From contig CALUYB010000001.1 in assembly GCA_944324905.1 (NCBI GenBank), positions 62,001-126,000 of the forward strand: DNA of 64,000 nt, in the 5' to 3' direction. Origin of the DNA: Candidatus Gastranaerophilales bacterium (GTDB lineage Bacteria; Cyanobacteriota; Vampirovibrionia; Gastranaerophilales; Gastranaerophilaceae). The position numbers and the translations under genes are program-made. Positions 48,596 through 51,770 of this stretch are shown piece by piece (within the stretch, counting starts at the first letter, position 1; each line of letters begins with the position of its first letter). The notes beneath the pieces were generated by a model. The model had not been told where the DNA came from. It made no database searches and saw only the letters and a list, made by a program, of their open reading frames with translations.

Positions 48596-50491
48596 ATGTT
48601 TAAATTTGACACAATCGTAGTTGGTGCAGGGCATGCGGGAATAGAAGCGGCAGTTAGTGCTGCACGTCTTGGGGCAAAAGTGCTTTTTTGTACATTAAAC
48701 CTTGACAACATTGCCCTTATGCCCTGTAATCCTGCGGTTGGTGGCCCTGCAAAGTCTAATTTGGTTCGCGAAATTGACGCTCTGGGCGGGGTTATGGCGG
48801 ATGCGACAGATGCTACTTATGTGCAGATGAAAATGTTAAATTCATCTCGCGGGCCTGCAGTGCGCGCACTAAGGGCGCAATCTGATAAAAAAGAATACAT
48901 GAGATATTTTAGACACTTGCTTGAAAGTGAAAAAAATATCTCTTTAAAACAAACTCAAATTACTGAAATTATTGTTGAAAATGGTGTTATAAAAGGCGTT
49001 AGGGATGAATTAGGACTTGAATATTTTGCACCGACGGTTATTTTAACCACAGGAACAAGTTTAGAGGGTAAAATATATATTGGTTTAAAGTCTTTTAGCG
49101 CAGGAAGATTGGGAGAACGTGCAGCTTGCGGACTTTCAGAAAGTCTGGAGAAAAACGGGCTTAAAATAAAAAAATTAAAAACAGGAACACCGGCAAGAGT
49201 TGACGGTCGGACAATTGACTATTCAAAATTAATTATTCAGCCGCCTGACCCCTTAATTGACGGTTTGCCAAATTTCTTTTCTTTTAAGCCAAATCGCCCA
49301 ATAAGAGAGCAATTGCCTTGTTATTTAACAAAAACTACTGAATTAACCCATAAAATAATTCGCGATAACTTAGATAAATCTCCACTTTATCAAGGATTAA
49401 TTCATGGCAGAGGTCCAAGGTATTGTCCAAGTATTGAAGATAAGGTAGTAAGATTTGCGCACAACCCTTCCCACCACATTTTTATTGAGCCTGAGGGAAA
49501 AGACACTTATGAAGTTTATGTGCAGGGATTTTCAACAAGTTTGCCTGTTGAAGTACAGTTTCAAATGCTCCATTCACTCCCAGGGCTTGAAAATGTGTCT
49601 GTAATAAAACCTGCTTATGCTGTTGAATATGACTCTGTAAGCGCGCTTGAGCTTGACCATTCTTTGATGAGCAAGAAAATAAAAGGTTTATTTTTAGCAG
49701 GACAAATTAACGGTACATCAGGCTACGAGGAAGCTGCAGCGCAAGGACTTGTGGCAGGAATTAACGCAATAAATTATCTTCAAAATAAAGATTCACTTGA
49801 GTTAACGCGTGCAAATTCTTACATTGGTACATTAATTGATGATTTAGTTACAAAAGATTTAGATGAACCTTACAGAATGCTAACTTCAAGAAGTGAATAC
49901 AGACTTATTTTAAGACAAGATAACGCTGATGAAAGGTTAATGGAGATAGGATACAGCGCAGGGCTTGTCAGGGAAGAAAATATTTTAAGATTTAGAGAAA
50001 AGCAAAAACAAATTGAATTTGAAATAAATAACCTAAAAAATACAAAAATTTCACCCACTCAAGAAAATAAAGAAATTCTTGCAAAATACGGTGAAAATCT
50101 TGATACGGGAAAAAGTGCTTATGAACTACTAAAGCGTCCTAATGTAGATTATAAGGTTTTAAAAGAGCTAAACTATGAGCTTTTAGGAAATTACCTTGAT
50201 AAGCTTTTTGAGCGCGAAGTGTTGGAGCAGGCGGAAATAAAAATAAAATATGACGGGTATATTAAGCGTCAGGCAAGCCAAATAGAAAGTGCCGATAAAA
50301 TGGAGCGCATAAATATACCTGATGATATTGATTATTTTGCAATAAAACAAATTTCAACGGAGACAAAGGAAAAACTTGACAAGGTGCGCCCTAAAACCTT
50401 AGCTCAAGCCCTTAGAATCGGCGGAGTAAAGCCTGCTGATATTTCTTGTTTAATGGTGTTGATAGAATCAAGAAAATTGACAAATAAATAA
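48596..50491 (+). CDS. mnmG: tRNA uridine-5-carboxymethylaminomethyl modification enzyme MnmG
   Basis: FAD enzyme (GidA) that with MnmE modifies U34 of tRNA. The FAD-binding VVGAGHAGIEAAVSAARLG is at residues 7-25. Motifs NPAVGGPAKSNLVREIDALGG, GRGPRYCPSIEDK, FLAGQINGTSGYEEAAAQG and LTSRSEYRLILRQDNAD are all conserved. 631 residues, full length. It follows the Skp-like gene by 3 bases; mnmE is not adjacent. MnmD (12 kb) may act on the ammonium-branch product. Confidence 0.98.
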   Translation: MFKFDTIVVGAGHAGIEAAVSAARLGAKVLFCTLNLDNIALMPCNPAVGGPAKSNLVREIDALGGVMADATDATYVQMKMLNSSRGPAVRALRAQSDKKEYMRYFRHLLESEKNISLKQTQITEIIVENGVIKGVRDELGLEYFAPTVILTTGTSLEGKIYIGLKSFSAGRLGERAACGLSESLEKNGLKIKKLKTGTPARVDGRTIDYSKLIIQPPDPLIDGLPNFFSFKPNRPIREQLPCYLTKTTELTHKIIRDNLDKSPLYQGLIHGRGPRYCPSIEDKVVRFAHNPSHHIFIEPEGKDTYEVYVQGFSTSLPVEVQFQMLHSLPGLENVSVIKPAYAVEYDSVSALELDHSLMSKKIKGLFLAGQINGTSGYEEAAAQGLVAGINAINYLQNKDSLELTRANSYIGTLIDDLVTKDLDEPYRMLTSRSEYRLILRQDNADERLMEIGYSAGLVREENILRFREKQKQIEFEINNLKNTKISPTQENKEILAKYGENLDTGKSAYELLKRPNVDYKVLKELNYELLGNYLDKLFEREVLEQAEIKIKYDGYIKRQASQIESADKMERINIPDDIDYFAIKQISTETKEKLDKVRPKTLAQALRIGGVKPADISCLMVLIESRKLTNK

Positions 50492-50564
50492 AATGAAAGG
50501 GTAAGACCCAAATCCCCCGCAACACACACTCTACAAAGCAGAAAGGTTGAAAGGGGGTGAGCAA

Positions 50565-50642
50565 ATGATTAAACGTGAGTTAATCAAAAAAGCTCTAGTG
50601 GTGCTAGAGCTTTTAATCAGATTAATTATAACGTTAATCTAA
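50565..50642 (+). CDS. 25-residue hydrophobic peptide with strong ribosome site
   Basis: Small ORF (MIKRELIKKALVVLELLIRLI then ITLI) with a near-perfect AAAGGGGGTGA Shine-Dalgarno 5-6 bases upstream, far stronger than those of neighbours. The peptide is a cationic start followed by an amphipathic or membrane helix, like type I toxin or holin-like peptides. The five Cs at about 50513-50517 could pair with the GGGGG of the ribosome site. Two strong hairpins follow. It lies in the 234-base gap between mnmG and convergent rpoD. A leader peptide for an attenuator, or a toxin under RNA control, are the options. Confidence 0.5.
   Translation: MIKRELIKKALVVLELLIRLIITLI
50588..50614 (+). other. 11-bp hairpin inside the 25-residue ORF
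   Basis: AAAAGCTCTAG-TGGTG-CTAGAGCTTTT (arms 50588-50598 and 50604-50614), perfect. The 3' arm ends with Ts. It lies inside the coding sequence, so translation and folding would compete. Confidence 0.7.
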
Positions 50643-50653
50643 AGGGTCAAAGC

Positions 50654-50706
50654 AGCAACTCTAAGAGAAACCACCTCTTGGGGTTGCTCCCCTTTATATT
50701 TTAATT
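50654..50706 (+). terminator. Strong 14-bp hairpin with U-rich tail
   Basis: Arms 50654-50667 (AGCAACTCTAAGAG) and 50675-50688 (CTCTTGGGGTTGCT) pair fully with two G-T pairs around a 7-base loop. CCCC and TTTATATTTTAATT follow. It ends the mnmG/small-ORF transcript and may also act on the convergent rpoD side. Confidence 0.7.
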
Positions 50707-50725
50707 ATACCACCTTTTAGATGAG

Positions 50726-51715
50726 TTACAACCCTATGTAATTTTTTAAATTACCGCTCAAGTTTTGGTTGCGACACAACTTTTTAAGTTTTGAAATTGC
50801 GCGTGTTTCAATTTGTCTGATACGCTCGCGCGAAACACCGTAACGGCTGCCTATTTCATCAAGTGTTTTCTTTTGTCCGTCATCATCTAAGCCATAGCGC
50901 ATAATAAGTACATCTTTTTCTTTTTGGTTTAGTTGATTTAACATTTTATGAACATCGGTTAATAAATTTTCCTGTGTAACCTTAGTATCTGGTGTCAGAT
51001 GTGAATCATCAATAATAAAATCAGCGATTTTTGATGAATCATCTTTTTGATTTGCAGGTGTTTCAATGCTTATAGTGCTTTGTGCGCTTTTCATAAGGGA
51101 TGACAATTTAGAAGGACTCATGCCAATAGCATGCGCCACTTCCTCTTTTGTTGGTGTGCGGTTTAATTTTGTTGAAAGCTCGATTGTTGCACGTTTAATT
51201 TTACCTAAAGTTTCAATCATATGAACGGGCAACCTTATCATGCGCGACTTATCTGCAATGCCTCTTGTAATTGACTGTTGAATCCACCAGGTTGCATAAG
51301 TTGAAAACTTATAACCCTTTGTATAGTCAAACTTTTCAGCAGCTTTCATAAGTCCTAAATTGCCTTCTTGAATTAAATCAAGGAATGAAAGACCGCGCCC
51401 GATGTACTTTTTAGCAATTGATACTACAAGTCTTAAATTTGCATTTATTAAAATTTCTTTTGCTTTTTGAGAATTGTTTTCTTTAATCTCTTTTGCAATT
51501 TTCATTTCTTCTTCGTAAGACAAAAGTTTTATTTTACCTATTTGTTGCAGGTAAACTTTAACTGAATCATCAGAAGTTGCGCTTTTATAGTCTTCTTTTA
51601 CCTCTTTTTCTTCTTGATTTTCGTCGTTTTCATCATCAAGATTTTCTATTTCATCCATTTCAAAGAGATTTTCATTTGTTTCATCTAACTCGTGTTTTGA
51701 ACTTTTAGTTTTCAT
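50726..51715 (-). CDS. rpoD: Primary RNA polymerase sigma factor (sigma-70)
   Basis: Housekeeping-type sigma factor of 329 residues. The N-terminal 45 residues are acidic and degenerate (no full region 1.1). [21 protein letters not shown] is region 1.2. [55 protein letters not shown] is region 2 with the -10 contact residues. [20 protein letters not shown] is the region 4.2 helix-turn-helix. The ATG at 51715 is preferred over TTG at 51730 because GGAG lies just upstream. A cyanobacterial-style group 2 factor is the alternative. Confidence 0.92.
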
Positions 51716-51770
51716 TTTTTTCTCCAACAAGCCGTTTAATAATTATACAATTTTTTTTAGGTGATACAAG

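Follow-up and report, generated by a model that had tools for sequence, protein, structure and literature searches.

We found that the gap downstream of mnmG in the window, by which we mean the whole stretch of 64,000 nucleotides that was analysed, carries a unit at 50496-50695, which covariance models assign to a family of units, each ~200 nt long, in Ca. Gastranaerophilales. We consider it highly likely, from sequence evidence, that this is a previously undescribed family of chromosomal type I toxin-antitoxin loci, both as regards the circuit and its class, whereas the transcription, the duplex decay, the toxicity, the membrane target and the trigger of the circuit are what we infer. An earlier note on this DNA had suggested, among other readings, a type I toxin-like peptide under RNA control, and this suggestion is now strongly supported by the RNA architecture, the coding selection, the antisense promoter and the strand-specific terminators.

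The unit occupies the 234-base gap that the note had described, between the end of mnmG on the plus strand at 50491 and a convergent sigma-70 gene on the minus strand (50726-51730). The strong ribosome site claimed ahead of the ORF is borne out, with GGGGGTGA at 50553-50560 before an ORF at 50565-50642, and the upstream C-run that had been thought able to sequester it is CCCCC at 50514-50518, which pairs in the MFE fold with GGGGG at 50553-50557 and buries the Shine-Dalgarno (SD) site. The perfect 11-bp hairpin within the ORF is found at 50588-50614, and the 14-bp hairpin described as terminator-like lies at 50654-50688, but its T-run, CCCTTTATATTTTAATT, is poor and a simple scan makes no terminator call. 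We also observe three features that were absent from the note: the pairing of the 5' and 3' ends, the antisense promoter at 50704-50731 and the antisense-strand T-run after the in-ORF hairpin. The features of the locus are as follows.

50496-50695, plus strand: family unit and predicted toxin mRNA, from AAAGGG to CCCTTT (full-length covariance-model match 1.5e-48; fold z -6.65).
50496-50509, plus strand: 5' arms of P1 (AAAGGG, 50496-50501) and P2 (GACCC, 50505-50509) (MFE fold, covariation).
50514-50557, plus strand: P3 hairpin, pairing CCCCC 50514-50518 with GGGGG 50553-50557 and GCAAC 50519-50523 with GGTTG 50545-50549 (MFE fold).
50553-50560, plus strand: Shine-Dalgarno site GGGGGTGA (direct reading; GGAGGTGA-like conservation across the family).
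50565-50642, plus strand: toxin-like ORF MIKRELIKKALVVLELLIRLIITLI, 25 codons and a stop (length and codon-position conservation).
50588-50614, minus strand: P5, a perfect hairpin of 11 bp within the ORF that is predicted to act as the intrinsic terminator of the antisense RNA (strand-specific stability, covariation).
50591-50586, minus strand: TTTTTT after P5.
50644-50648, plus strand: 3' arm of P2, GGGTC, directly after the stop codon (MFE fold, covariation).
50654-50688, plus strand: P7, 14-bp 3' hairpin, probably the terminator of the toxin mRNA (strand-specific stability; T-run weak in the window).
50690-50695, plus strand: 3' arm of P1, CCCTTT (MFE fold).
50704-50731, minus strand: antisense promoter TTGTAA-16-TATAAT with an extended -10 (TG) (promoter scan).
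50586-50697, minus strand: predicted antisense RNA (antitoxin) of ~110 nt, placed by the promoter and the in-ORF terminator.

The stretch in the window folds at -72.2 kcal/mol, and none of 200 dinucleotide shuffles was as stable (z = -6.65); its MFE fold is one closed multibranch structure formed by P1, P2, P3, P5 and P7. This structure, with homologues whose helices covary throughout the order, is far beyond chance. Covariation was assessed in 54 units whose ORFs share less than 90% identity, comparing the pairing of each arm with its own partner and with partners from other units over 2000 permutations. Cognate pairing was strongly favoured for P2 (z -12.6), P3 (z -14.4), P5 (z -17.4) and P7 (z -21.1), each with 0 of 2000 permutations, and P1, the GGG of which is nearly invariant, reached z -3.6. 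Shared ancestry is a caveat of such permutation tests, but it is an unlikely cause of the covariation, because the non-pairing control in the same 54 units was flat (z +1.2). The start and end of the ORF, at first intended as a control, covary too (nucleotides 1-16 with 55-72; z -11.3, 54 units), so that the region around the start codon may also be paired; in the window these pairing partners lie around 50565-50580 and 50620-50641. In 32 ORF sequences aligned without gaps, both sides have changed in 10 of the 12 P5 pairs, and the pairing score drops at any partner offset; across 86 ORFs the stability of the in-ORF hairpin exceeds that of synonymous-codon shuffles by 3.4 sd (z -3.4). With a plain MAFFT alignment, misalignment limited RNAalifold to 17 recovered pairs, and the arm-pairing permutations were therefore used. 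The predicted unpaired probability of the SD site is 0.05 as a family mean and 0.13 in the window unit; in silico removal of the 5' arm raises it to 0.54 in the family and only to 0.16 in the window unit, and under in silico trimming of the 3' end the site stays buried. The structured toxin mRNA with a sequestered ribosome site that characterises the class is thus present as a prediction.

Next, we investigated the opposite strand. Just past the 3' end of the unit, 94% of the 115 units carry a sigma-70-like antisense promoter with 10 or more of 12 positions matched, compared with 2.5% in locally resampled sequence; its spacer is 16 or 17 in all units but one, and it lies 2 nt from the unit end in 85 of the 115. 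In the window its -35 is only TTGTAA and overlaps the 3' end of the sigma gene. A toxin-mRNA promoter scoring at least 10/12 is present in just 39% of units (null 4%), and that of the window is weak. The hairpins differ in the strand that they favour: the antisense form of P5 is the more stable one in 47 of 54 units and the sense form in 2 (p 6e-9), whereas for P7 and P3 the sense form is favoured in 46 and 38 of the 54 units, respectively. The mismatches follow the same division, those of P5 comprising 47 A.C cells, which are G.U on the antisense RNA, against 7 G.U cells, and those of P7 comprising 69 G.U cells against 20 A.C cells. From the strand-biased stability and mismatches of P5 it follows that the perfect in-ORF hairpin belongs to the RNA of the other strand, where a T-run follows it, and we identify it as the predicted intrinsic terminator of an antisense RNA. 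The antisense RNA that the earlier note had proposed looking for is therefore predicted from both ends, by a promoter and a strand-specific terminator, as a gene overlapping the toxin mRNA in the manner of the class. This predicted opposite-strand RNA very probably silences the toxin-like peptide.

The earlier note had also proposed checking the ORF for synonymous-rate bias; a bias by codon position is evident in it. Among 115 distinct units it has exactly 24 codons in 75 and 25 codons in 11, together 86 of the 115. Outside the hairpin, in codons 17-24, codon position 2 has an entropy of 0.57 bits, compared with 1.55 bits for position 3, and codons 17, 19 and 24, which encode I, L, F, V or M, never vary in their second base. 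These patterns indicate an ORF conserved as coding, with codon position 2 the most constrained, and hence a small hydrophobic ORF under coding selection, as is typical of the class. The peptide follows the pattern M-x-K/R-x-x-I-K-x-A-L/I-x-x-L/I/V with a hydrophobic tail; its mean GRAVY is 1.43, its net charge of ~+2.5 falls mostly within the first nine residues, and its helical moment of 0.52, compared with 0.40 in shuffled peptides, makes it amphipathic. Pfam, NCBIfam and PHROGs profiles gave no meaningful match, either for the window peptide or for 23 family peptides; the latter yielded two isolated weak Pfam hits only, both outside the toxin families. At such lengths, peptides come close to the detection limit of these searches.

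When searching for further copies, we find the family to be widespread in the order. A first covariance model, built from four same-site units, detected units in 93 of 146 genomes of the window's own taxonomic family, in 32 of 41 genera and at 1-9 loci per genome; a second detected them in 113 of 192 genomes of the order, spread over three of its families. A draw across the phylum (292 genomes, 115 genera) gave 80 positives, all from the window's own family, and in the sampled phylum beyond Gastranaerophilales the covariance model found no unit. The maximum was 12 units per genome. A DNA pattern scan of named genomes returned 19 stretches, mostly titled Ca. Gastranaerophilales or uncultured bacterium. 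One rumen MAG titled 'uncultured Acinetobacter' (L085, ONVC01000018.1) matches the start pattern of the unit, the record probably being mislabelled or contaminated. The earlier note had called for copies at other loci with covariation of both its hairpins, P5 and P7, and such copies occur across the order; the outcomes it had named as counting against it, namely no conservation or broken ORFs beside covarying hairpins, did not occur, the ORF and the hairpins being conserved across genera.

The units are intergenic, and some copies stand in tandem ~290-310 nt apart (L059, L027). Their neighbours at the inspected loci are ordinary chromosomal genes, which from reading the sequences we take to include mnmG, dnaN, dnaB and ruvC, in all four orientations (66 loci). 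At the site of the window unit, a unit is present in G008 and G011, with 96 and 95% identity over a 321-base query, and in G013 and G005, with 76 and 75%; the site is also filled in G007, and it is empty in G006, G004 and G012. Comparison of the window with L005 (G005) and L004 (G013) shows flanks 92-96% identical around a unit only 56% identical, whereas against G008 and G011 the flanks are 85-90% and the unit 98% identical. In this allele swap at a fixed site, the flank carrying the antisense promoter stays with the host. The swap could be allelic replacement or the loss of alternate members of a tandem pair. We also observe, at ~25 or ~54 nt upstream of the unit, a TTAATAATATTTCC motif in 24 of 115 units with up to two mismatches (carriers include L027, L041, L042, L043, L031, L057, L129 and L152), which is possibly a regulator site or an UP element of the toxin promoter.

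In certain units the outer structure is retained but encloses unrelated toxin-like ORFs; across the family the ORFs span 24-38 aa. One type has 32 aa and ends in ...ELELLELFLKS. The 32-residue M..FD.LI...KEKAPELELLELFLKS type (L089, L039:1113-1346, L091, L101, L059:2076-2309 and L035:820-1056) sits on the same RNA scaffold and has its antisense terminator hairpin in the C-terminal codons. A type of 36-38 aa (MRVAVNKTDWFAIIVILLLLTATKKELVDILTLFLQK) occurs in L096 and L107, in another family of the order and in tandem copies, and a further type, MKRDKIEKALEILELILKIILAFIK, is likewise found in another family of the order. The alternative-ORF units that were refolded each place a hairpin of the antisense strand within the ORF, in most cases followed by a distinct T-run, and most kept the antisense promoter, a few of the most divergent scoring only 7-9/12. 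The ORF is broken in five units, by loss of the start codon (L125, L141), frameshift (L120, L152) or a nonsense change (L138), and all five keep antisense promoters of 11 or 12/12, which is the decay expected for a harmful gene with a harmless antidote. Tentatively, and with less than even confidence, we raise the idea that one RNA chassis (a buried SD site, end-to-end pairing, an antisense promoter and an antitoxin terminator placed inside any ORF carried) might act as an exchangeable cassette for unrelated membrane toxins, with whole-allele replacement at fixed chromosomal sites across the order; such cassettes would possibly serve as a fast-diversifying arsenal, of a population or phage-defence kind.

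Under the toxin-antitoxin reading, an mRNA of ~200 nt would encode a cationic, hydrophobic, helical peptide of 24-25 aa. In the full-length mRNA the strong ribosome site would be buried in the 5' hairpin and both ends paired to each other, and we propose that this transcript would therefore be poorly translated. The promoter just past the 3' end would fire an antisense RNA of ~110 nt that stops at the intrinsic terminator built into the toxin coding sequence and anneals to the toxin mRNA over its 3' half, probably leading to cleavage and silencing. With less antisense supply, or with the 5' structure opened, the peptide would be made and would presumably enter the inner membrane.

The same two-RNA circuit might instead control a regulatory or benign membrane peptide that tunes a membrane protein or a stress response. 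All of the sequence evidence for the circuit fits this equally, yet the multiple, tandem and patchily distributed copies, the swapped ORF types and the dead ORFs that retain an antitoxin promoter resemble toxin loci, and we regard a benign peptide as unlikely. That the unit is a purely structural non-coding RNA with an ORF by chance would account for the strong structure and covariation, but the constant ORF length and the codon-position bias outside the hairpin render it hardly credible. Equally improbable is a leader-peptide attenuator of the downstream gene, which the earlier note had entertained. Its short ORF followed by a terminator-like hairpin would be in place, but selection on the in-ORF hairpin acts through the opposite strand and the 3' neighbour is co-directional at about half of the loci (32 of 66), with neighbours in all orientations, and at the window locus attenuation is rejected because the downstream gene is convergent.

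The note's further suggestion of a small mobile element survives in part, since the units are indeed scattered and also form tandem repeats, but we detected neither a transposase nor a target duplication nor a viral carrier. The element would be MITE-like, with its ends formed by the AGGG/CCCT inverted repeat and the ORF and hairpins as incidental cargo, and the empty sites in G006, G004 and G012 and the same-site allele swap are in keeping with it. Against this, the ORF is under coding selection, and the difference between empty and filled sites takes in the antisense promoter, which lies outside the inverted repeat. No target-site duplication is visible on comparing filled sites with the empty sites of G006 and G004, the inspected flanking genes include no transposase or mobility protein, and blastn against phages and plasmids gave no match to the unit. 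Strict pattern scans of viral contigs returned nothing, and a loose scan matched 93 stretches, with a covariance-model match in 0 of the 80 loci examined. We therefore consider a mobile element very improbable and retain the toxin-antitoxin reading.

By profiles and Rfam, the family appears to match no known type I family, its peptides being near the detection limit of profile searches. Rfam 15, known antitoxins included, gave no match at gathering score and chance hits only at E<=5. It resembles bsrG/SR4, bsrE/SR5 and txpA/RatA in its convergent toxin mRNA and antisense RNA pairing at their 3' ends, in a ribosome site held in a short GC-rich stem and in its small hydrophobic peptide. These are type I systems of Bacillus subtilis, silenced via a duplex at the 3' half in txpA/RatA and bsrG/SR4 (PMC6562991). 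Unlike them, the family has a toxin of 24-25 aa with no sequence similarity found, and it is chromosomal, between housekeeping genes, with up to 12 copies and several ORF types on one scaffold. Long-distance 5'-3' pairing in the full-length toxin mRNA is shared with aapA/IsoA of Helicobacter and hok/Sok, and several chromosomal copies with aapA/IsoA, which has six loci (PMC6733600). In contrast to both, the SD site of the family is buried by a local 5' hairpin and remains so upon in silico 3' trimming. The RNA architecture of ibs/Sib and shoB/OhsC of E. coli is different from that of the Gastranaerophilales family, and the family peptides have no profile match to them, at lengths near the detection limit. 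They do share very short hydrophobic peptides, of 19 and 26 aa there (PMC8309996). The msoT1/msoA1 system of Microcystis, a host also within the Cyanobacteriota/Melainabacteria group, has an antitoxin whose complementarity covers the toxin ORF at its 3' end and the 3' UTR, as predicted here; MsoT1, of ~8.8 kDa in its His-tagged form, is predicted to have two membrane helices and has homologues among photosynthetic cyanobacteria (PMC12390103). The family differs from it, with peptides of 24-25 aa confined to Gastranaerophilales in the searches run, and its ORFs of 24-38 aa fall short of a two-helix toxin of ~70 residues.

Before the 2025 Microcystis report, type I systems were known only from Proteobacteria, Firmicutes and Tenericutes (PMC12390103), and in the open-access literature searched no paper combined 'type I toxin-antitoxin' with 'Melainabacteria'. 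The candidate type I loci described here are thus of a known kind, come from a lineage for which no examples had been described, and are unusually abundant and informative. The family is large, unannotated and multi-copy, and more than half of the sampled genomes of an uncultured gut order carry it. Overall, the loci offer hundreds of natural variants in which the toxin ORF, the hairpin that buries the SD site and the terminator of the antitoxin would be written on shared bases, and a two-RNA circuit that is directly testable.
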